Below, piece after piece: positions 28,505 through 39,870 of a stretch of 64,000 nucleotides of DNA. This DNA comes from Lysinibacillus sp. FSL M8-0337. Its GTDB lineage: Bacteria; Bacillota; Bacilli; Bacillales_A; Planococcaceae. The position numbers were made by a program, and so were the translations under genes. The notes beneath the pieces were generated by a model. That model was not told where the DNA came from and ran no database searches. It worked only from the letters and a program-made list of their open reading frames with translations. Numbering within the stretch: the first letter of the stretch is position 1; each line of letters begins with the position of its first letter. The stretch spans positions 3,782,001 through 3,846,000 of the forward strand of contig NZ_CP151996.1 in NCBI RefSeq assembly GCF_038593855.1, read 5' to 3'.

Positions 28505-29980
28505 TTATTTTAACGCAATACAAATATTTTTTGCTTCGGTGAAAAATTCTAGACTATGGTGACCACCTTCACGCCCTACGCCGCTCTTTTTAAAACCGCC
28601 AAACGGGGCACGTAAGTCGCGTACAAACCAGCAATTGACCCAAATTGTTCCCGCCCGCACATCATGTGAAATACGATGTGCACGTTGTAAATTTTCCGTC
28701 CAGACCACTGCATTCAATCCATATTCTGTGCCATTTGCAATCGCTAATGCTTCCACTTCTGTGTCAAATGGAATAATCGTAACGATTGGCCCGAAAATTT
28801 CCTCTTGGCAAATACGTGCTTGAGCATTTTCCTGCAAATATATAGTCGGTTGTAGGTAATAACCCGTGCTTAAATGTACTGGTAATTCAGGACGTTTGCC
28901 GCCATAAATAAGCGTCGAGTTTTCATATTCAGCAATGCTTAAATAGCTAGTTACTTTGTTGTAATGGGCTTGACTTACGACTGGCCCCATATTCGTTTTA
29001 GCATCTTGCGGATCGCCAACAACTAATGCTGCAGCCGCTTCTTTAAAGCGTGTGAGAAATTCATCTAAAATAGTACGCTGCACTAAAATACGTGATCCTG
29101 CTAAGCATACTTGACCCGAATTCATAAATGCTGCCTGAATGGAGACAGGAATGGCCTTATCTAAATTCGCATCTTCAAAAATAATATTAGCTGCCTTTCC
29201 ACCTAATTCAAACGAAACCTTTTTTAATGAATCTGCACCATTTTTCATTATAGCTTTCCCTGTTGTTGTTTCCCCCGTAAAAGAAATTAAATCAACTTCA
29301 GGATGCGTCGTCATAAATTCTCCTGCTGACTGAACACCAAAGCCATGCACGACATTAACGACCCCATCTGGAATACCAGCCTGTTGTGCAATCTCTCCAA
29401 GTAACGATACGGTTAATGGAGTAATTTCTGCTGGTTTAATAACTGCCGTATTCCCTGAAGCTAAACAAGGCCCAAGCTTCCATGTTGTCAGCATAAAAGG
29501 TAAATTCCATGGAGTAATTAATGCAGCCACCCCAACTGGCTCATACCGCGTATAATTTAAATACGCATCGTCCATTGGATATACCTCACCACCTTGATGC
29601 TCCATAAAATCCGCAAAAAACTTTAAATTTTCTGCTGCCCGTGGTATTTCACGCTCTAACGCTACTTGGTAAGGCTTCCCTACGTCTAATGCCTCTAAGC
29701 GAGCTAACTCTTCTTTGCGTTCGATGATGATTTCAGCCATCCGACGAATTTTTGCACAACGTTCCGATAGTGGCATCGTGCGCCAAGGTCCTTCTTCAAA
29801 AGCTTGACGTGCAGCTTCACAAGCACGATCCACATCTTCAAAACTGGCTTCGTGAACTTTTGCAATAATTTCCTGAGTCGCTGGATTTTTCACCTCAAAC
29901 AATGTTTGAGAAGAAGATTCTACATATTCTCCATTTATGAATAGTTTAACTTCCTTCAATTTCGTTTGTGTATTTGCCAT
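28505..29980 (-). CDS. 2-hydroxymuconic semialdehyde dehydrogenase
   Basis: 491 residues from the ATG at 29980 (AAGGAG, 9-nt spacing). It has the aldehyde dehydrogenase fold: ELGGKAANIIFEDAN holds the general-base Glu, NSGQVCLAGSR the catalytic Cys, and EEIFGPIVTI the cofactor Glu. The WVNCWFVRDLRAPFGGFK segment is typical of the XylG/DmpC group, which oxidises 2-hydroxymuconic semialdehyde to 2-hydroxymuconate with NAD+. It is the last gene of the meta-cleavage operon and feeds the adjacent tautomerase. Confidence 0.88.
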   Translation of the reverse strand: MANTQTKLKEVKLFINGEYVESSSQTLFEVKNPATQEIIAKVHEASFEDVDRACEAARQAFEEGPWRTMPLSERCAKIRRMAEIIIERKEELARLEALDVGKPYQVALEREIPRAAENLKFFADFMEHQGGEVYPMDDAYLNYTRYEPVGVAALITPWNLPFMLTTWKLGPCLASGNTAVIKPAEITPLTVSLLGEIAQQAGIPDGVVNVVHGFGVQSAGEFMTTHPEVDLISFTGETTTGKAIMKNGADSLKKVSFELGGKAANIIFEDANLDKAIPVSIQAAFMNSGQVCLAGSRILVQRTILDEFLTRFKEAAAALVVGDPQDAKTNMGPVVSQAHYNKVTSYLSIAEYENSTLIYGGKRPELPVHLSTGYYLQPTIYLQENAQARICQEEIFGPIVTIIPFDTEVEALAIANGTEYGLNAVVWTENLQRAHRISHDVRAGTIWVNCWFVRDLRAPFGGFKKSGVGREGGHHSLEFFTEAKNICIALK

Positions 29981-29993
29981 GATAGACCACTCC

Positions 29994-30191
29994 TTACTCT
30001 TCATTTTGTCGACGTTGGATGGACTTTCCTGCAATCCCCCAATGAGAACTTGGGATTTCATTTAAACATACACGAACCGTTTCCAGTGGAGCATCAAGTA
30101 CCGAAGAAACGGTTTTACTCATTTCTTCTATTAATAGTTCCTTCTGTTCTTTCGTTCGCCCCTCAATAAACGTTACTTGAATAAATGGCAT
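29994..30191 (-). CDS. 4-oxalocrotonate tautomerase
   Basis: A 65-residue subunit. After Met removal the N-terminal catalytic base Pro-1 is exposed (MPFIQVTFIEGRTKEQK), with the substrate-binding Arg at the expected positions (R12 in GRTKEQ and R40 in TVRVCL). It converts 2-hydroxymuconate to 2-oxo-3-hexenedioate. A strong SD (AAGGAGGAG) is present. It lies between the dehydrogenase and the decarboxylase, the same order as xylH in Pseudomonas meta operons. Confidence 0.9.
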   Translation of the reverse strand: MPFIQVTFIEGRTKEQKELLIEEMSKTVSSVLDAPLETVRVCLNEIPSSHWGIAGKSIQRRQNEE

Positions 30192-30207: not shown

Positions 30208-30999
30208 TTATCGCTCTACTTGAACGGATAATGATTCCATTCCGTCAAAACTGACAGTAAAGCTATCTCCTGCATGCATTGTGGCAGAACCTGTTAATGC
30301 GCCACTAAGTACAATATCTCCTGCTCGAATATGCTGACCACGGGCAATTAATTTATTCGCCATCCATGCAATGGCTCTTGCTGGATGCCCCATAACGGAA
30401 CCTGCTGTACTCGTCGCAATCATTTCATCATTTTGTGTAAAAATACAGCCCATATTAACCAGATCCACTTCATTCACTGCATATTTTTGCGAACCCACTA
30501 TGTAGCGAGAGGAAGAGGAATTATCAGCGATTACATCTGGCAATGTAAAATGGAAGTTTAAATAGCGACTATCAATTATTTCCATGGCAGGTGCAACATA
30601 GGCAGTTGCTATCAGTACGTGCGCGACAGTCACTACTGGGCCGACTAAATCTTCCTTAAACACGAAGGCAATCTCTGGCTCAATTTTGGGGTGAATAAGT
30701 GATTTTAATGATATTGGATGTTGGGCATTGACCGCCATATTCGCTAATAACACGCCATAAGTAGGCTCATGCACTCCCATCATTTGCTGTTTAGCTTTGC
30801 TTGTTAAACCGAGCTTAAGTCCCGAGATGGATGTTTGCTCATGTTTGCACTTTAGTTCAATAAGTTTGTCTTGAATATCATAAGCTGTTTCAACGGTTAA
30901 TTCTGGATAGCGCTCGACAAACTTCGTAACCTCATACACATCCCGCTCTGCTAAATACAACGCATATGCAATTTGATCTAGCGTATCGGTTTTCATCAT
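30208..30999 (-). CDS. 4-oxalocrotonate decarboxylase (XylI/DmpH type)
   Basis: About 263 residues from the ATG at 30999 (GGAGG, 8 nt upstream). It belongs to the hydratase/decarboxylase family of fumarylacetoacetase-like enzymes: KIEPEIAFVF carries the metal-binding Glu pair, and DSRYLNFHFTLPDVIADN and TGSATMHAGD are conserved. Sequence alone does not separate decarboxylase from hydratase; the assignment comes from gene order (hydratase-AcDH-aldolase-decarboxylase-tautomerase, as in xylJQKIH). It would decarboxylate 2-oxo-3-hexenedioate to 2-hydroxypenta-2,4-dienoate. Confidence 0.82.
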   Translation of the reverse strand: MMKTDTLDQIAYALYLAERDVYEVTKFVERYPELTVETAYDIQDKLIELKCKHEQTSISGLKLGLTSKAKQQMMGVHEPTYGVLLANMAVNAQHPISLKSLIHPKIEPEIAFVFKEDLVGPVVTVAHVLIATAYVAPAMEIIDSRYLNFHFTLPDVIADNSSSSRYIVGSQKYAVNEVDLVNMGCIFTQNDEMIATSTAGSVMGHPARAIAWMANKLIARGQHIRAGDIVLSGALTGSATMHAGDSFTVSFDGMESLSVQVER

Positions 31000-31019
31000 C
31001 GCTCGTTCCTCCATTCTCT

Positions 31020-32033
31020 TTATACTGACTGTTTCACATCTGCTATGTTACGTGCAATCTCTGCTATTAAATCTTCCTGACCACCTACTGCTTTCATTTT
31101 GCCAAGTTCTACTAAAATTTCGCGTTCATCTACGTTATATTTTTTCGCTGCTTCTTGAGTGAATAGTAAAAAGCTTGAGTAAACGCCTGCATAGCCCATC
31201 ATTAAGCTAGACCCTGTTATTTCCTGTGGTCGTGGCATAAATGGCGCTACGACTTCATTGGCAACGTCGATTGTTCGATATAAATCAATGCCTGTTTCAT
31301 AGCCTAGACGGTCGAAAACCGCTACCATTACTTCTGTTTGAGTATTTCCACTACCAGCACCTAAACAGCGTAAACTACCATCCACATACGTAGCACCTGC
31401 TTCGACTGCAGCCATCGTATTTGCCATAGCAAGTGATAAATTATTATGGGCATGGAAGCCAATTTCGCAAGAAACATGCGATTTTAGTGCAGCTACCCGC
31501 TCTTTCACCTCATGGGGGAGCATGGCACCTGCTGAATCTGTCACATAGATAATTTCAGCTCCATAACTTTCAAATAATTTCGCCTGCTCCACTATTACTG
31601 ACGTCGGAGCCATATGTGCCATCATTAAAAAGCCGACTGTTTTCAATCCTAATTCTCGACTTAAATAAATATGTTGACCAGCAACATTTGCCTCCGTGAC
31701 ATGCGTTGCAACCCTCGCCATGGTAGCGCCCACCTTCACAGCATTTTTTAAATCTTCCTTTAGACCAATTCCAGGTAATATTAAGACTGAAATTGCCGAA
31801 TCACCACATTCTTCTTTTGCCGCCGCTATTAACTTCAGTTCATCCACTTTCGAAAAACCGTATTGCAAAGAGGAACCACCTAATCCATCCCCATGGGAAA
31901 CCTCAAAGTATTTCACTTTTGCTTCTCCTAAACCTCTTGCAACATCTCGCACTTGCTGCTCCGTAAATGCATGGCGCATTGAATGACTGCCATCCCTCAA
32001 TGTCACGTCTAAAACGGTTAGTTGTTTTGTCAT
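31020..32033 (-). CDS. 4-hydroxy-2-oxovalerate aldolase
   Basis: About 337 residues from the second of two tandem ATGs (32033; SD GGAGG). A DRE-TIM metallolyase: TLRDGSHSMRH has the catalytic Arg-Asp and proton-relay His, and IGFHAHNNLSLAMAN the metal His pair. The C-terminal domain (about 275-335) is the communication domain that docks the acetaldehyde dehydrogenase. It splits 4-hydroxy-2-oxovalerate to pyruvate and acetaldehyde, which is channelled to the partner encoded just upstream. Confidence 0.93.
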   Translation of the reverse strand: MTKQLTVLDVTLRDGSHSMRHAFTEQQVRDVARGLGEAKVKYFEVSHGDGLGGSSLQYGFSKVDELKLIAAAKEECGDSAISVLILPGIGLKEDLKNAVKVGATMARVATHVTEANVAGQHIYLSRELGLKTVGFLMMAHMAPTSVIVEQAKLFESYGAEIIYVTDSAGAMLPHEVKERVAALKSHVSCEIGFHAHNNLSLAMANTMAAVEAGATYVDGSLRCLGAGSGNTQTEVMVAVFDRLGYETGIDLYRTIDVANEVVAPFMPRPQEITGSSLMMGYAGVYSSFLLFTQEAAKKYNVDEREILVELGKMKAVGGQEDLIAEIARNIADVKQSV

Positions 32034-32048
32034 CATCCTCACCTCCAA

Positions 32049-32933
32049 TTAGTTCGACTTGACTGTTCCATGTTGCAGCTTAGCCATTTGATTTCCGACT
32101 TGCACTGCTGCCGCTGTCATAATATCGAGGTTTCCTGAATACGGTGGGAAAAAGTCTCCCGCCCCCTCAACTTCCAAAAAAACTGATATTTGTTGACCTT
32201 CAAAAATAGGCGCACTCGTCATGCGATAACCCGGTACATATTGTTGTACAGCGTTCACAATCTCTTCAATAGCCTTTGTAATTTCCTCTTCCTTGCCACC
32301 TTCATTCACTAATACATGTACGGTGTCACGCATCATAATTGGCGGCTCTGCGGGATTTAATATAATAATGGCTTTCCCTTTGTTTGCACCGCCTACTTCC
32401 TCTAGCGCACTAGCTGTTGTGCGTGTAAATTCATCAATGTTAGCCCGTGTGCCAGGCCCTGCACTTTTACTCGCCACCGTTGCCACAATTTCTGCATACG
32501 TAACATCCACCACTTGATTAATGGCATACACAATAGGAATCGTCGCTTGCCCCCCACAAGTCACCATATTGACATTGTCAACCGCCACGTACTTTTCCAA
32601 GTTTGCACACGGCACAACAAATGGACCAATAGCCGCTGGTGTTAAATCGACTATCTTTTTGCCAAGTGCCAGTACTTGTTCACTGTGCGCAGTATGGGCA
32701 TTAGCAGTTGTTGCATCAAACACAATATCGAAGAGCTCTGGGCATGCAACTAAACCCGCAATACCATTTGTAATGGTATGATAGCCACGATCCTTCGCAC
32801 GCTGAATGCCATCCGATGTAGGGTCTATTCCCACCATTACACTCATCGTTAAATACTCACTGCGCTCAATTTTGTACATTAAATCTGTCCCAATATTTCC
32901 AGAGCCTAAAATGGCAACTTTCAATTTGACCAC
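32049..32933 (-). CDS. Acetaldehyde dehydrogenase (acylating)
   Basis: 294 residues, GTG start. Its SD (GGAGGAG) lies within the last codons of the upstream hydratase gene, so translation is coupled. The NAD motif [10 protein letters not shown] (10-19) and catalytic Cys126 in [11 protein letters not shown] are present. It converts acetaldehyde plus CoA and NAD+ to acetyl-CoA and works as a channelled complex with the aldolase encoded next. Its presence argues that the pathway ends in acetaldehyde and so starts from catechol rather than homoprotocatechuate. Confidence 0.93.
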
Positions 32934-32935
32934 TT

Positions 32936-33724
32936 TTATTTCTCCTCCTTTCTTCGAAACGTGGCGGAAACAGCACCAAGATGAGCAAAGTCCGCTGTAA
33001 AACTATCTCCATCTTCTATCGTTACGGCTGATGTTAATGCGCCTGCTAAAACCATTTCCCCTGCTTGCAAGCCAATATGGTATTTACTTAGCTTATTAGC
33101 AAGCCATGCTACTGCCCGTAGTGGATTTCCCATTACAGCAGCCGCTGCTGCACTATCAAAAAGCTCGCCATTGCGATAAACATTCATACCAATATGCGGT
33201 AAATCTACCTCAGTCAATTTTGTTGGTGTGCCGCCAATAATAACCATTGCGGAAGAACCGTTATCTGCTACTGTATCTTCAAAATTAATTTTCCAATCGG
33301 TAATACGACTATCAATAATTTCTAAAGCTGGCACAATATAATCTGTCGCTTCGATAACATCCATCTCCGTAATAGAGGGCCCATATAAATCCTTCTTCAA
33401 GATAAATGCTATTTCAAATTCCAACTTTGGCTGAATAAAATGATTGAGAGAAATGGTTGCACCGTCCACCTCAACCATATCCGATAAAATATGACCGTAA
33501 TCTGGTTCTGTTACTTGAAATTGTTGTTGCATCGCCTTGCTTGTTAAACCTATTTTTTTACCGATAATTTGTTTGCCCATTTGTTGCTTTGCTGCAATTT
33601 GAAGTAATTGAATCGTATAAGCGTCATCGACAGTAATATCTGGTACAGTGGACGTTAATGGGGCAATAGGTCGCTTTGCTTCTTCTGCTTCTAATAACTT
33701 CTTTGCATAAAGTTGTCTATCCAT
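32936..33724 (-). CDS. 2-hydroxypenta-2,4-dienoate hydratase (XylJ/DmpE type)
   Basis: About 262 residues from the ATG at 33724 (AGGAGG, 6-nt spacing); a longer frame upstream overlaps the flavin reductase and is rejected. A paralogue of the decarboxylase encoded three genes downstream, with the same metal-binding [10 protein letters not shown] and [21 protein letters not shown] motifs. The position next to the acylating dehydrogenase matches xylJ/dmpE. It hydrates 2-hydroxypentadienoate to 4-hydroxy-2-oxovalerate. Confidence 0.83.
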
Positions 33725-33734
33725 TGTCAACCTC

Positions 33735-34214
33735 CTAAGCCTGCATTGTTGTTTCCACTGCAAGTGAGCCGTATCTTCCATTGAAAAATAGTAACGGCTC
33801 TCCATCTTCTAGTTGAATGTCCTTTACACTGCCGATAAATAAAGTGTGGTCGCCTTCAACATATGTGCTCGCTACCTCACAGCTAATTTGTGCAAGCGCG
33901 CCCTCAATTGTCGGGGCCCCTTGTAAATCACTGAATTGGACCTCGCGCTTTTCTTTTATTTGGCCGGCAAATAACATAGATAATTCTTGCTGTTGTGCAG
34001 ATAATATATTGACTGTAAATGTCCCACTTTGCTTGATATGCTCCAGCATTGAAGCCTTCTCCCCAATCGAGATCACTACTAGTTTTGGATTAAGTGAAAC
34101 AGACATGAACGCATTTGCCGTCATGCCATGAATAGTGCCATTCACATTTGTTGTAATGACAGTTACACCTGTTGCAAATTTCCCCATTGCATTTCTAAAA
34201 AGACGATCATCCAT
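33735..34214 (-). CDS. NAD(P)H:flavin reductase (HpaC/PheA2-like)
   Basis: A 159-residue flavin reductase domain: GKFATGVTVITT, TANAFMSVSLNPKLVVISIG and GTFTVNILSAQQQELS are the typical flavin-binding stretches. It supplies reduced FAD to the monooxygenase encoded two genes upstream, forming a two-component aromatic hydroxylase. It is soluble and lies only 10 bp before the hydratase start, in the same operon. Confidence 0.9.
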   Translation of the reverse strand: MDDRLFRNAMGKFATGVTVITTNVNGTIHGMTANAFMSVSLNPKLVVISIGEKASMLEHIKQSGTFTVNILSAQQQELSMLFAGQIKEKREVQFSDLQGAPTIEGALAQISCEVASTYVEGDHTLFIGSVKDIQLEDGEPLLFFNGRYGSLAVETTMQA

Positions 34215-34306: not shown

Positions 34307-35272
34307 TTATTTCACTGGAACTTTCACTGCACGATCAGGTGTGCCATATAAGAAATACTCATTAGGTAGAGGTGAGCCATACCAAATAATCGCCTCGTCT
34401 AACTCATTTTCGCGCCAAGTGATTGGCTTCCAGTCAGGGTCGAAAATAAGATAACCAGAGTCACCAAATAATTCTACTCGGTTTCCACCAGGCTCCATTA
34501 CATACATGAAATACGCTTGACTTACACCATGTTTTCCTGGGCCCGCTTCTATTTGAATTCCGTTTTCTACGAAAATATCCGCTGTATCCATTAAATGCTG
34601 TGGATAGCCATACCAAAATGCAATATGATGGAAGCGACCACTATTACCAGTTTGATCGTTCATTAATGCCACTTCATGTACTAATGGGCTCACACTCATC
34701 CACGCACCAATTTCTTCATTATTATTCAAGACAATTTGTTCACGTAGCTTAAAGCCTAAATGTTCAGACATAAATTCACGATTTTTTGCTACATCTCTAC
34801 ACATTAAGTTGATATGATCTAAACGTCGGGCAGGGACACCCATTAATGGTCGTTTTTGTGGACGGCTTTTTAATAATGTTTTTTGATCTTCCGCTGGCTG
34901 GAAATAATCTACTTCCCACAAAATTTCTTGTTTATGACCATCAGGTGTAACAAATTGATAAGCACGACCATGCCCTAAATCGCCATCAATCCAACCTTTT
35001 CCATAGCCGCTTTTCTCTAACGATGCAACCCTTCGTTCTAACGCTTCAGGTGAACTCGCACGCCATGCCGAATGTCCAAGACCTGCTTCTTTACCTTCTG
35101 TTAACTTTAATGTGTGATGATAAAAATCCTCGTACCCTCGTAAATAAACCGATTGCCCCTCACGCGCAGTAATTTGTAAGCCCATATAGTCGGTGAAAAA
35201 TTTTAAAGATTCCTCTGGTTTCGGTGTAAAAAGCTCCACGTGCGCTAATTGTGCTACATCAAAATTTGTCAT
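34307..35272 (-). CDS. Extradiol ring-cleavage dioxygenase (catechol 2,3-dioxygenase)
   Basis: A 321-residue two-module VOC-fold type I extradiol enzyme. The Fe(II)-binding facial triad is H153 (DHINLM), H216 (FHHIAFW) and E267 (NRVELFG). H199 and Y257 sit where homoprotocatechuate 2,3-dioxygenase has its acid-base His and Tyr. It opens catechol next to the OH groups to give 2-hydroxymuconic semialdehyde. The sequence is of the homoprotocatechuate/Bacillus PheB type, so substrate range could include substituted catechols; the downstream genes favour catechol. Confidence 0.9.
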
Positions 35273-35292: not shown

Positions 35293-36831
35293 TTATTTAT
35301 TTGTAAAGTAATTCACATCATCCGGATTTACCCAAGTCGGGTCTGTCCAACCCGTTAAATCATAATCAGCCATACATTGCTCAGCAAAAGCGATAAACTC
35401 GTCTGTTTTCCCGCTTCCCTGTGCACCAAACAACGTTTGTAATCTTATGTCTTCATGGTTTCCAGCGTAATTTCGTTCATATAGCTCACTTCGACCACCG
35501 AATTCTGTACCAATGGCATCCCACAGTAGCTTGATTGTTTTAATTTTTTCAAGAGCCTCAATACCATTTGAACCACGATAAAGCTTATCCAATGTTGGAC
35601 GGAATTCCTCATTTAAAAAGTCTCTAGCACTGGATGGCTGCACAATTAAATTCCCTGCTACGATTTGCTGGATGATGCCTTTAATCTTCGGCCAGCCTTC
35701 CTGCAAAAATACGCGATAGGCTAAGCCACCATTTAAATTTGGAATGACAATGCCATTCTCTTTTTTCTCTGGATTCAGCGCCATCGCATCGCTTAATGAC
35801 CAGAACATATGACGCCATGCCATAATCTCACCAATATGCACTTGAACACCTCGGAATTGATCCGTACCTGCTGTCTTTAATGCCTTTAGCAAGACACCGA
35901 TAATAAAATCTAATTTCACAGCTAAGCGTGTGACACCTTGGAACGTAAAGCGATTAATGAAACCGCTTTCTACAAAGAATGAAGTCGTCTTCTGCATATC
36001 TTCATAAATTAAAATATTTTCCCACGGAATAAGAGCTTGTTCGAATACAAGTACTGCGTCATTTTCATCGAAGCGGCTACTTAATGGGTAATCAAACGGA
36101 CTTCCCATAATCGCAGACGTCATTTCATATGAAGCACGGCTTATAAGCTTCACTCCTGGTGCATCCATAGGTGCAATAAAAACCACCGCAAATTTTTTAT
36201 CTTTGATAGGTAAACCATACGTACCAACGAAATTGTAGTTTGTGATTGCAGAGCCAGTAGCCACCATTTTTGAACCACTGACGATTAAGCCCTTATCCGT
36301 TTCACGCTCTACTTGAATAAATACATCGCCGACTTCATGCACGTCTTTATGGCGGTCCACTGGTGGATTGACAATGGCATGATTGAAAAACCAATTGCGC
36401 TCTTGTGACTCTTTATACCAACGCTTTGCATTTTCTTGAAAAGGTGAATAGTATTCGGGATTTCCTCCGAGCGTTGCAAGGAAGGATGCTTTATAATCTG
36501 GTGTGCGTCCCATTTGTCCATAAGTCAGTTTTGCCCAAGCAACAATTGCGTCTCGCCCTTGAATTAAATCATCTGCGCTCCGTGCTGCTCGGAAATACTT
36601 ATGTGTATAACCCCCGCTCCCCGTATCCGTTTCACAAGTTAAAATATCTTTGTATTGCGGGTCATGCATGGCATCATATAAACGTGAAATCGATCGTGCT
36701 GAATTTCGAAAAGCTGGATGTGTCGTGACATCCTTCACACGTTCACCATGTAACCAAATTTCCCGACCATCCTTTAAACTTTCTAAATATTCCTGCCCTG
36801 TCAATGGCTTCGTACCTTGTTGAACAACCAT
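35293..36831 (-). CDS. FADH2-dependent aromatic (phenol / 4-hydroxyphenylacetate-type) monooxygenase
   Basis: 512 residues, 4-hydroxyphenylacetate 3-hydroxylase (HpaB) family large component: an N-domain with TGQEYLESLKDGREIWLHGE, a middle beta domain (VSGSKMVATGSAITNYNFVG, VFIAPMDAPGVKLI) and a C-terminal four-helix bundle (GGRSELYERNYAGNHEDIR). It hydroxylates a phenol ortho to the OH with reduced flavin from the HpaC-like reductase. Family members include both HpaB and Geobacillus phenol hydroxylase PheA; operon context favours phenol. The SD is AGGAGGG. It is the first gene of the operon. Confidence 0.87.
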   Translation of the reverse strand: MVVQQGTKPLTGQEYLESLKDGREIWLHGERVKDVTTHPAFRNSARSISRLYDAMHDPQYKDILTCETDTGSGGYTHKYFRAARSADDLIQGRDAIVAWAKLTYGQMGRTPDYKASFLATLGGNPEYYSPFQENAKRWYKESQERNWFFNHAIVNPPVDRHKDVHEVGDVFIQVERETDKGLIVSGSKMVATGSAITNYNFVGTYGLPIKDKKFAVVFIAPMDAPGVKLISRASYEMTSAIMGSPFDYPLSSRFDENDAVLVFEQALIPWENILIYEDMQKTTSFFVESGFINRFTFQGVTRLAVKLDFIIGVLLKALKTAGTDQFRGVQVHIGEIMAWRHMFWSLSDAMALNPEKKENGIVIPNLNGGLAYRVFLQEGWPKIKGIIQQIVAGNLIVQPSSARDFLNEEFRPTLDKLYRGSNGIEALEKIKTIKLLWDAIGTEFGGRSELYERNYAGNHEDIRLQTLFGAQGSGKTDEFIAFAEQCMADYDLTGWTDPTWVNPDDVNYFTNK

Positions 36832-36971
36832 TCTCTTCCCTCCTACAAATCTTTTTTCTTGTTTGACATGTCTATTTCAATTTAATACTTTTTGAATTTT
36901 TAGATAATTAACAAAAAGTATAGTCTTCTCTTTTTTTTCTTTAAAATTTGAAAGAAATTTTCGTATAAACT

Positions 36972-36996
36972 AGAAAAAGCCAGCAAAATCGCTGAC
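36972..36996 (-). terminator. Terminator of the phenol-sensor regulator gene
   Basis: On the minus strand GTCAGC pairs with GCTGGC across a 6-nt loop, followed by TTTTTCT. It separates the regulator from the catabolic operon, whose own promoter must lie in 36832-36971. Confidence 0.7.
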
Positions 36997-37001
36997 TTTT
37001 C

Positions 37002-38786
37002 TCACTTTTTATTTTCTAAAGTTTTAATTGCATAATAAATTTTCAATGCCAAATGACAGCGAAAACGGCCATCCCCTGTACGCATGTCTTCCTGCAATAA
37101 TGATTCAATTTTTTCCATTCGATAACGAAAACCAGGGATTGATAGATTCAAAGCTTTTGCAGTTTTATTGACGTTACCGCTATGGTTTAAAAAGACTTCT
37201 AACGTATGGACAAGTGTTGCATGATTTTGCTCATCATATTCTAATAACTGACCAAGTACCTCTTTGTAAAACTGTAAAAGCTCTCTTGGATTTGTCGTTT
37301 TTAAAAATAACATAATATGTTGGAAGTTTTCGTAAATGGCCGCTTGTGACTGTTGTGGCGCTGCGTAACGTAAAAATTGGCATATTAATTTCGCATCGTT
37401 ATAGCTATTCCCGATTTCTTCTAACTTCTCTGCATTTTTTCCTACGCCTATTTGGAAAGTTGCTTGCTTAAAGCGCTCCATTACCCTTTTCGATAAGGCA
37501 CTAAGGAAGTTCGACATATATTGAACATCTTTCTTGCAGTCTTCAAGAATAAGCAGTACTTCCTGATTTTTAATAAAGCACTCCACGTTTAAATACTCAG
37601 TCGCTAAAAAGCTATGCACTATTTCTGGTTCTTCATGTTCCATTGTTATAACGATAACACGATTATTTTTACTCGGATCAAAATAAAAAATATTTCGTGC
37701 TTTTTTAATAAGCTCCTCCGAGAGAGCTTGTTGACTCATAACTTCATCTAAAAAATCCGATTTTTTCTTCCACTGCGATTGTGCAATTTGTATTTGCGTA
37801 TATAAATAAATCGAAAAAACCGTTACAGCACGTTCAATAATCATTTCCTGTTCACGTGTTAATGCTTTGTGACTTAAAATTACCAATGTACCCAATTGTT
37901 TTTTCATCGTCATAATATCATATTCATGGCGAAACTCTTTTTTCTTACGACTCGCTTCTATATAAACTCGTTCATCGTCTTCATGCATAAAATAGTAACC
38001 AATTGGTTTCATTAAGTATCTTCGTTCCACAGTTACACTGCATTGTAACGCATCACTTAACAGGTATAACAGCTGGTTTAATGTATATCCTTCAAGCATT
38101 GCATGTGTCATTTGTTTATGAATTGTGTCTGAATGCACAATGGAATTATTAAGACTTTTTAACTCATTAAATGTATTATCTAATTCATCAGCTAACGAAG
38201 TATCTTGAAAGTAGCGCAATATTTCCAACTGTTCTTCAGTAGCGTGCTCCTTTGTCCGTACAACAAATTTACAATAATCATCGCATTTCCCTCGACATTT
38301 CTCCTCAAAAACGACAATCTCTTTTGGATACGTTTTGGCTAAAAATCCTGCTACATAACCGATTAATGTCCAACAAACACTTTCATCACTAAAACCAAAA
38401 TGGCGGACATGTTCCTCTGCCTCGTAAGAATGAAACCATTTCCCTTCCATTTCGAACTTATCATTAGTTATTTCCAATACATCAATTTGTACACTGACAA
38501 CGCCCTCTAATGTATGAATGGCAGCCCCAGCCCTAATTAACTCTTTTAACTCTTTCCAGTTGTACATTTTCTCGATAGAGCCACCAGCACTGTAGCCACA
38601 TGCCCAGCCATATCGTAATAAAAAACCTTTTGCACGCTCCATATTCAAGGTTTGAATAATATCACGTCTAAAAAAGCCAAGCGCTTCAGCTGACTTTAAA
38701 ATCATTCGATTCCCATTGAATTTTATAATGCCTGAGCGTGGATTAATATCTATAGCATTTTCAAACACTAAACGATTTGCTTTCAT
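37002..38786 (-). CDS. Phenol-responsive regulator: XylR_N-V4R sensor with PucR-type HTH
   Basis: 594 residues. Residues 1-180 match the XylR_N plus V4R phenol-sensing module of DmpR/MopR. C138, E161, C164 and C172 keep the exact spacing (23, 3, 8) of the MopR zinc ligands; H91 and W117 are good candidates for the phenol-contacting His and Trp. Instead of a sigma-54 AAA+ domain, a central region (about 230-480) leads to a PucR/CdaR-type helix-turn-helix (NHSGNVNKTAKALNLSIPG, about 535-575). The SD is GGGGGTG. Probable activator of the meta-cleavage operon directly downstream. Confidence 0.85.
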   Translation of the reverse strand: MKANRLVFENAIDINPRSGIIKFNGNRMILKSAEALGFFRRDIIQTLNMERAKGFLLRYGWACGYSAGGSIEKMYNWKELKELIRAGAAIHTLEGVVSVQIDVLEITNDKFEMEGKWFHSYEAEEHVRHFGFSDESVCWTLIGYVAGFLAKTYPKEIVVFEEKCRGKCDDYCKFVVRTKEHATEEQLEILRYFQDTSLADELDNTFNELKSLNNSIVHSDTIHKQMTHAMLEGYTLNQLLYLLSDALQCSVTVERRYLMKPIGYYFMHEDDERVYIEASRKKKEFRHEYDIMTMKKQLGTLVILSHKALTREQEMIIERAVTVFSIYLYTQIQIAQSQWKKKSDFLDEVMSQQALSEELIKKARNIFYFDPSKNNRVIVITMEHEEPEIVHSFLATEYLNVECFIKNQEVLLILEDCKKDVQYMSNFLSALSKRVMERFKQATFQIGVGKNAEKLEEIGNSYNDAKLICQFLRYAAPQQSQAAIYENFQHIMLFLKTTNPRELLQFYKEVLGQLLEYDEQNHATLVHTLEVFLNHSGNVNKTAKALNLSIPGFRYRMEKIESLLQEDMRTGDGRFRCHLALKIYYAIKTLENKK

Positions 38787-38878
38787 GAATAGGCACCCCC
38801 ATAAACATGCTGTTTTCTCCCATCATGTTTTTACTGTCTACACATTTTCCCTTACTACTACGATTTCCCATACGAATA

Positions 38879-38893
38879 AGTAAGCGTTTTCTT
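38879..38893. promoter_or_regulatory. Possible CcpA (cre) site upstream of the regulator
   Basis: Minus strand AGAAAACGCTTACT matches the cre consensus TGAAAACGCTTACA at 12 of 14 positions. It lies downstream of the regulator's promoter, where CcpA could act as a roadblock. Confidence 0.4.
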
Positions 38894-38970
38894 GACATTA
38901 AACAAAGAAGAGCACAAAAGCGTTGCCAGATAGATAATTCGAAGATTTAAAGTGTTTAAGTTTACTAACA

Positions 38971-38999
38971 ATCATAGTATATTTTTAGTTTTCAGACAA
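38971..38999 (-). promoter_or_regulatory. Sigma-A promoter of the phenol-sensor regulator
   Basis: On the minus strand TTGTCT, a 17-bp spacer and TATGAT, about 185 bp upstream of the ATG. Confidence 0.65.
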
Positions 39000-39030
39000 T
39001 TTAAATTACTAGACGCCAAAATGTTTGCAT

Positions 39031-39064
39031 AAAAAAAGTACTGACCATTTAAGAATCAGTACTT
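39031..39064 (-). terminator. Terminator of the HAD phosphatase gene
   Basis: AGTACTGA and TCAGTACT pair (39038-39045 with 39056-39063); a run of seven T follows on the minus strand. Confidence 0.82.
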
Positions 39065-39081
39065 AAAAAATAGTAAAGATA

Positions 39082-39870
39082 TTAAAGTTCTTGTACAAGC
39101 TTTAATAAGGCTGTTAACGAATCTACCTCAAAGGTTGGTGTTACATTCCCAGTTAGTTTGTTGTTTTCACGGTTAATCCACACATTGCGCATGCCCACTC
39201 GAGAAGAACCTAAAATATCCGTATTTAAGTTATCGCCAACCATAATAGCATCGTTAGCAGTAATGCCCGCCGTTTCCATTACATGCTCAAAAATAGAGGC
39301 ATCAGGCTTTCCTTTACCAAAGTCACCAGAAATAATGATATGGTCGAAGTACGGTGCGATTTCAGGTGTAATTTCAAGCTTTAAATTTTGTAAACTTGGT
39401 GCACCGTTCGTTAGTAATATCAGTTGATATTTGCCTTTTAGCTCATCTAAAACTGCAAACGTATCTTCGTATAAAAAAGGTGAAACTTTGCGTTCAGCTA
39501 CAAAGCGTTCTCCTAGTTCAGCACCTAACTTTGCATCGTCTATACCAAGTGCCGCTAAACCCTTTGTCCATGCTTCAGTACGATAACCTGGCACAAGTTC
39601 TTTCATTTTTTGAAAAGAATCAGTAGGGTCATCAAACGTTCCCCAAAGCCCTTCAAAAGGGTTAATACCGATTAACACTGTATAATCATATGTTTCGTAG
39701 CCCTCATAAAGTGCACGTGCTTCTTTGCGCACAGCTTCCTCTAATGCTGCTGAATCCACATTATGTATTGTCGCTGCATATTCACATGTTTTTTCAAAAG
39801 CTGTTTTAACAGATTTTTTGTCCCATAACAACGTATCATCCAAATCAAAAATAATTGTATTAATTGACAT
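39082..39870 (-). CDS. HAD-superfamily hydrolase
   Basis: About 262 residues from the ATG at 39870 (AGGAG, 8-nt spacing). The four HAD motifs are present: DLDDTLL (nucleophile Asp), LLTNG, the Lys in FGKGKPD and VGDNLNTD. The alpha-helical cap between motifs I and II is of the YjjG/YfnB type, so it is probably a small-molecule or nucleotide phosphatase. No neighbour points to a substrate. Confidence 0.85.
   Translation of the reverse strand: MSINTIIFDLDDTLLWDKKSVKTAFEKTCEYAATIHNVDSAALEEAVRKEARALYEGYETYDYTVLIGINPFEGLWGTFDDPTDSFQKMKELVPGYRTEAWTKGLAALGIDDAKLGAELGERFVAERKVSPFLYEDTFAVLDELKGKYQLILLTNGAPSLQNLKLEITPEIAPYFDHIIISGDFGKGKPDASIFEHVMETAGITANDAIMVGDNLNTDILGSSRVGMRNVWINRENNKLTGNVTPTFEVDSLTALLKLVQEL

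Follow-up and report, generated by a model that had tools for sequence, protein, structure and literature searches.

Gene content of the regulator locus

The window, by which we mean the whole stretch of 64,000 nucleotides analysed from Lysinibacillus sp. FSL M8-0337, contains a regulator gene at positions 37002..38786, coordinates that the first-pass annotation had given correctly. The gene sits on the minus strand as a single open frame encoding 594 amino acids, and stops are abundant in the plus strand across the same interval. The open reading frame list, Pfam and PDB alignment gave the order XylR_N-V4R-linker-GGDEF_2-HTH_30 for its product.

The pathway genes all lie downstream of the regulator on the same strand. 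An HpaB-type flavin monooxygenase (35293..36831; PF11794/PF03241), a probable phenol hydroxylase that scored 706 bits with TIGR02310, below the cut-off of 885, is followed by a catechol 2,3-dioxygenase (C23O; 34307..35272; TIGR03211, 359 bits, above the cut-off of 320), a flavin reductase partner (33735..34214; PF01613), a DmpE-like hydratase (32936..33805; TIGR03220, 279 bits, below cut-off), an acylating acetaldehyde dehydrogenase of the DmpF type (32049..32933; TIGR03215, above cut-off), a 4-hydroxy-2-oxovalerate aldolase of the DmpG type (31020..32048; TIGR03217, above cut-off), a DmpH-like decarboxylase (30208..31014; TIGR03218, 266 bits, below cut-off), and a 2-hydroxymuconic semialdehyde dehydrogenase-like protein (28505..30061; TIGR03216, 604 bits, below cut-off). 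The assignments of C23O, the aldolase and the acetaldehyde dehydrogenase pass their cut-offs, and the others were inferred from the best-scoring model together with gene context. The cluster reads as an operon of the catechol meta-cleavage kind, which would convert phenol via catechol to pyruvate and acetyl-CoA. The entire 4.56-Mb genome contains only two HpaB genes.

Comparison of gene neighbourhoods revealed at least one aromatic-pathway match in all of 45 context loci, with an HpaB- or PheA1-type monooxygenase in 42 (not L036, L065 and L077), a dioxygenase match in 43 (not L059 and L061), and a flavin reductase in 40; the references were taken from the window and from L034–L036, so these loci match themselves, and most loci had been picked for strong XylR_N scores. 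Within the clade of the window's regulator, the next reference-matched gene was HpaB in 23 of 23 loci. Of these 23 rows, 8, counting the window protein itself, share 86% or more identity with that protein. In L034, L039, and L040, HpaB lies 750–3704 nt from the regulator. Eleven of the clade's loci carry an extradiol C23O and 12 an intradiol dioxygenase, that of L034 being a Dioxygenase_C member.

Domain architecture of the regulator

Pfam analysis identified four domains, every match exceeding its curated cut-off. XylR_N (PF06505, E 6e-25) spans residues 10–105 (38472..38759, minus strand) and contains H91 (38514-38516). V4R (PF02830, E 6e-10) spans residues 119–177 (38256..38432, minus strand) and contains C138, E161, C164, and C172, putative zinc ligands by homology; W117 (38436-38438) is located just N-terminal of it. 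The CdaR-type, GGDEF-like domain GGDEF_2 (PF17853, E 2e-7) covers residues 357–467 (37386..37718, minus strand), and the PucR C-terminal helix-turn-helix HTH_30 (PF13556, E 2e-16), which includes a conserved SIPGFRYR stretch, covers residues 525–583 (37038..37214, minus strand). The 594-residue protein had no Pfam match to AAA+ or Sigma54_activat.

A phmmer search against the PDB matched residues 14–209 to MopR (5kbe, E 1.1e-29), residues 8–216 to DmpR/CapR (6iy8, E 2.1e-26), and residues 17–195 to PoxR (5fru, E 2.5e-21). The likeness to MopR and CapR extends to residues 209–216, i.e., into the linker, and the corresponding linker of DmpR is a coiled coil according to the accessible text of PMC7264223. 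These results agree with the first-pass annotation, which had described an N-terminus of XylR_N plus V4R joined to a PucR/CdaR-type helix-turn-helix output without AAA+.

The AdeR model NF058503 (NCBIfam) matched residues 306–583 (E 4e-18), with 65.5 bits against its own cut-off of 700. When a profile built from 23 relatives was searched against the PDB, it recovered CapR (E 1e-64), MopR (E 8e-64), the PucR-type protein Rv2242 at profile positions 461–612 (E 5e-7), and, weakly, SpoVT at profile positions 242–342 (E 0.0045); SpoVT_C was found by Pfam in 3 of 56 relatives. The AdeR and Rv2242 matches therefore identify the output half as an AdeR/CdaR-type module. The middle part of the protein may be GAF-like, a weakly seen feature suggested by the SpoVT resemblance. 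An AlphaFold model from three sequences, with a mean pLDDT of 38.4 and a pTM of 0.25, was too poor to show the geometry of the zinc ligands. A fusion or annotation artefact was ruled out by the single open frame and by the full-length occurrence of the protein in relatives down to approximately 20% identity.

Sensor residues and the probable inducer

Alignment with MopR (5kbe) paired H91 with H106, W117 with W134, C138 with C155, E161 with E178, C164 with C181, and C172 with C189. The DmpR ligands Cys151, Cys177, and Cys185 have an identical spacing of 26 and 8, and Glu172 is printed as a DmpR ligand, the invariant Glu of our alignment lying three residues N-terminal of the second Cys (PMC7264223, accessible text). 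The accessible portion of PMC10715001 describes the His/Trp dyad and a Cys3-Glu site in MopR, CapR, PoxR, and three Aromatoleum proteins, and in DmpR-type sensors of known structure phenol is held by the dyad (PMC7264223, PMC10715001; accessible portions). On the strength of the MopR alignment and the published DmpR spacing and dyad, the earlier reading, in which the four residues in V4R occupied the MopR zinc-ligand positions and H91 and W117 those of the phenol-binding His and Trp, is therefore right.

To these comparisons we added an alignment of 57 relatives without AAA+, including the window protein, made together with 7 sigma-54 relatives. Eleven positions within residues 1–200 were invariant across the 57 rows (G64, H91, G95, W117, E122, C138, G143, G147, E161, C164, and C172), and all six named residues were among them. 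A separate alignment of 56 complete homologues, consisting of the window protein and members 20–98% identical to it, yielded the identical 11 positions; L110, which runs off its contig end before the output, was counted in the 57 sensor rows and left out of the 56. The probability that 11 of 200 columns drawn at random would contain the six named residues is approximately 6e-9, a figure that ignores the general conservation of Cys and Trp and the presence of near-copy rows. The TOL-type XylR of pWW53 (L037) has Tyr at the His position, as is also stated for XylR in the accessible text of the DmpR paper (PMC7264223).

Among the MopR pocket residues listed in the accessible portion of PMC10715001, H106, W134, Y161, V112, and V114 (MopR numbering) are kept in the window protein, Tyr144 (window numbering) being retained, and eight have changed (F99 to I84, P103 to A88, F132 to G115, A162 to V145, Y165 to F148, S166 to L149, Y176 to V159, and I191 to F174). 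The kept residues suggest that the ligand is likely a phenolic compound; with eight altered pocket residues, its size and identity are therefore not fixed by homology. The same design with a natural inducer other than phenol itself, either a substituted phenol (cresol or a 4-hydroxyphenyl compound) or the intermediate catechol, is a possibility that we entertain tentatively. It would account for the G115 that replaces F132 in 23 of 23 clade rows and for the changes to I84, A88, L149, and V159 in the window, and catechol is the intermediate at which the two forms of the operon, extradiol and intradiol, coincide; furthermore, the HpaB protein scores below the 4-HPA hydroxylase cut-off, so its substrate is not fixed. 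However, the window protein retains Tyr144 and the His/Trp dyad, and it is through this dyad that the DmpR-type sensors of known structure bind phenol (PMC7264223, PMC10715001; accessible portions). For the preferred reading, a regulator responsive to phenol-type compounds, the gene neighbourhoods carry a further indication: the regulator and the hydroxylase stay paired while the ring-cleavage route switches, which favours the hydroxylase's substrate as the inducer, although catechol, which both cleavage routes share, may still play that part.

Control region upstream of hpaB

A terminator-like hairpin is located directly 3' of the regulator stop codon (36974..37001, minus strand); a hairpin scan found two in 36600-39200, where 1.4 were expected by chance. 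On inspection by eye, L049, L050, L051, and the Lysinibacillus copies likewise showed a hairpin followed by a T-run.

Between this hairpin and hpaB, a conserved block at 36891..36940 (minus strand), which contains GACTATAC (36918-36925) and is a putative promoter/operator of the hpaB operon, was common to the window, L050, L051, and L049. The 50-nt block had a log-likelihood ratio of 123.3, compared with a maximum of 99.1 in 20 shuffles (12 starts for the shuffles and 40 for the real run), and at a width of 24 nt it was barely above the shuffles (48.0 versus a maximum of 45.6). Detection was confined to these four extradiol-type promoters. The regulators of L050, L051, and L049 are 63, 41, and 34% identical to that of the window, respectively, and the conservation of the block could partly be plain shared ancestry.

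Inspection of the intergenic stretches by eye gave a candidate sigma-A -35 (TTATCT) and -10 (TAAATT), 17 apart (36879..36907, minus strand), and the block lies mostly upstream of this pair. The promoter scan offered an alternative, TTTAAA-17-TATACT, with TATACT at 36917-36922 as the -10; overall, the scan returned 5 sites versus 9.5 expected by chance. A repressor released by phenol, or a dual regulator, appears unlikely at this promoter. PucR-type regulators either activate or repress, and the conserved block is near or overlaps the possible promoter; however, the possible -35 is weak and in one reading the block is upstream of it, as with activators, and DmpR, MopR, and AdeR, the proteins to which similarity was found here, are activators. 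We therefore favour activation, with the exact operator and promoter positions taken as candidates.

The sigma-54 promoter consensus used for the search has a GG-N10-GC core. This core was present in none of 12 stretches, comprising the window and 11 others (up to 230 nt before hpaB, coding strand). The best consensus match was 6–9 of 12 letters, about like the shuffles (means 7.0–7.6), and two of the 12 stretches reached 9 of 12 letters without the core. The genome of the strain encodes two strong sigma-54 activator domains elsewhere, and the absence of a sigma-54 site here is therefore not for want of a system. A sigma-54 activator was ruled out by the lack of both an AAA+ domain and a sigma-54 core site.

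Motif finding across the 12 promoters did not yield a common operator and gave mainly a cre-like site of the intradiol-type group instead. All eight intradiol-type hpaB promoters tested (L034, L039, L040, L041, L042, L045, L046, and L057) contained a TGTAATCGCTTACT-like (cre-like) palindrome within a 16-nt stretch beginning 32–38 nt before the start codon, pointing to possible catabolite repression of these promoters. In the window, a cre-like site with one mismatch, AGAAAACGCTTACT, occurs at 38879-38892 upstream of the regulator, although chance alone would give 3.9 such sites per window; by eye it was also present in L002, L054, and L055 and absent from the other five relatives aligned. A perfect palindrome, GACATGTC, is located between the promoter and hpaB (36865-36872) and was identical in 9 of 9 aligned sequences, including L050.

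Distribution and history of the architecture

XylR_N, V4R, and HTH_30 were found by Pfam in all 56 complete homologues and GGDEF_2 in 55, and Sigma54_activat was not among the Pfam families listed for the 56. In a second set of 54 XylR_N proteins from the same order, Pfam matched HTH_30 in 46, V4R in 47, GGDEF_2 in 45, XylR_N in 51, and STAS in 7, and Sigma54_activat was again not among the families listed for these proteins. HTH and AAA+ models built from our own rows matched 47 and 0, respectively, of the 55 loci of this set, which include L168, a repeat of L070 left out of the 54-protein Pfam count.

Of the 261 genomes that represent the window's order, 61 had XylR_N, and in 59 of these the match exceeded the family cut-off; in the genome collection this order is a single family with the same 261 genomes. 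The listing for the order gave 113 places, of which 102 were taken and 11, including one with an internal TAG, were left out; with two places in one gene, this gave 101 genes, and 93 of these (47 in the first set and 46 in the second) encode a PucR HTH. The occurrence of XylR_N in 61 genomes ruled out a single domain swap confined to this strain. Across the phylum, 7 of 398 sampled genomes had XylR_N, the strain's own included, and none of 14 control genomes did. One or two genes were checked in each of the six other phylum-sample genomes: in five genomes they end in HTH_30 (one genome with two such genes), and in the sixth the gene, L110, runs off its contig; two of these proteins have an extra GAF domain. 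Fragments L086-L088, from one phylum-sample genome, were left out of the classes.

Among the further HTH-bearing rows, the zinc ligands, W117, and G95 were kept in 47 of 47 and the H91 position was His in 46 of 47 (L168 repeats L070). It is highly improbable that the sensor fold is now only a structural or dimerisation part that has lost ligand binding, as the full retention of the zinc ligands in this set beside one loss of the His (Lys in L134) might suggest, given that H91 and W117, neither of them a zinc ligand, do not vary in any of the 57 rows and that 45 of 45 context loci have at least one aromatic-pathway match.

The exception, L134:2191-4023, in which Lys replaces the phenol-anchoring His and the zinc ligands are intact, is the sole case among the 47. 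Seven short proteins of 337–379 residues (L159-L161 and L163-L166) have a remote XylR_N-like N-terminus with a weak or no Pfam XylR_N match, no HTH, no Cys ligands, and Tyr at the His position; they fit the seven STAS matches. L167, a short frame of 365 residues, has retained the sensor residues but lacks an HTH.

Relatives also occur in other genetic settings. At L104:1358-11949, an XylR_N-V4R-GAF-GGDEF_2-HTH_30 regulator shares its strand with a BzaD-type radical SAM protein for the B12 lower ligand (TIGR04385, over cut-off), a second radical SAM protein, and an O-methyltransferase/DUF2284 fusion, so that a DmpR-type sensor adjoins genes for the aromatic part of cobamides. L105, L106, and L107 are relatives in apparently anaerobic genomes, with neighbours that include an aromatic-acid-type MFS transporter and an aldehyde ferredoxin oxidoreductase, a sulfhydrogenase-like set, and a CoA ligase. 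The sensor-PucR design is therefore not tied to aerobic hydroxylases.

In the tree of sensor domains, the seven sigma-54 rows formed one side of a well-supported branch (100/99 at the fork, 100/100 in the table), and 34 of 500 label shuffles were equally tidy because there are only seven such rows. The first-pass annotation had proposed that the phenol-sensing module was re-used in a sigma-A-type activator. The sensor does belong to the same DmpR/MopR/XylR family, but 're-used' implies a direction of change, whereas the tree is unrooted, so that either output, sigma-54 or PucR, could be older. A single output exchange would suffice to explain the tree. We consider the chances roughly balanced that the standard aromatic sensor of this Bacillota lineage is the XylR_N-V4R-PucR protein, representing a large and nearly unstudied family in which a zinc/His/Trp sensor drives sigma-A transcription without an ATPase, and that the sigma-54 DmpR/XylR sensors arose by one exchange of output, for which the ancestor may have been of the PucR type. 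If this is true, one sensor has been wired to two unrelated activation machines.

Proposed mechanism

Taken as a whole, the gene product is probably a regulator of the PheR kind, a one-component protein responsive to phenol-type compounds. The sensor would form a dimer of the DmpR/MopR type (XylR_N-V4R) with a structural Cys3-Glu zinc site, in which the His91/Trp117 pair would anchor the phenolic hydroxyl. It would be joined, via the start of a DmpR-type helical linker, to a CdaR/AdeR-like module made up of the GAF-like region, the GGDEF-like domain, and the PucR HTH. Ligand binding might then re-set the output dimer through the linker; this dimer would bind the conserved block immediately 5' of the promoter of the hpaB operon and, without ATP hydrolysis, would help ordinary sigma-A RNA polymerase to start at that promoter.

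DmpR and MopR, the standard models of aromatic gene switching, act through a sigma-54 ATPase. Naturally occurring proteins that combine this sensor with an output lacking an ATPase could help to separate the sensor's share of the signal from that of the output, and Bacillus hosts could draw on them as ready-made candidate phenol sensors. Since the regulator is linked to the hydroxylase gene under either route of ring cleavage, the question of the inducer is directly testable.

Comparison with known systems

Among the full-text matches listed, with most subscription papers outside their coverage, there was no other account of the XylR_N-V4R-PucR design or of how it switches genes on. The term XylR_N has reportedly been used for a Sphingomonas in one paper. 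Plasmid proteins annotated as 'XylR N-terminal domain-containing protein' share the four-domain design.

A 2008 paper described PheR of Geobacillus stearothermophilus DSM6285 as the regulator of a phenol meta operon; its accessible text says that the sub-domain architecture of PheR differs from those of DmpR and XylR and that pheR is co-transcribed within its own operon (PMC2590616). The main text has zero occurrences of 'PucR' or 'helix-turn-helix' (PMC2590616). The comparison with PheR was made through L035 from a Parageobacillus thermoglucosidasius plasmid, which has the same length (642 residues) and the same gene order and lies in a phenol meta-cleavage operon. Like the window protein, L035 has the four domains and keeps the His/Trp pair and the zinc ligands; however, the two are only 27.8% identical, and the L035 locus encodes a PheA1-type hydroxylase (acyl-CoA-dehydrogenase fold), whereas the window locus encodes HpaB. 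The gene arrangements differ as well, pheR being co-transcribed in its operon, whereas a terminator-like hairpin separates the window's regulator from its operon.

MopR, DmpR (CapR), and PoxR share with the window protein the sensor domain, the dyad, the zinc-ligand positions, and the start of the linker, but they carry an AAA+ sigma-54 domain and a Fis-type HTH_8 where the window protein has a PucR HTH and no AAA+. The AdeR/CdaR/PucR family has the GGDEF_2 and HTH_30 output in common with it, the difference being the N-terminal XylR_N-V4R sensor. The design is thus not new: with its four-domain order and its location beside hydroxylase and catechol pathway genes, the window protein is of the PheR kind, which is frequent in this lineage.
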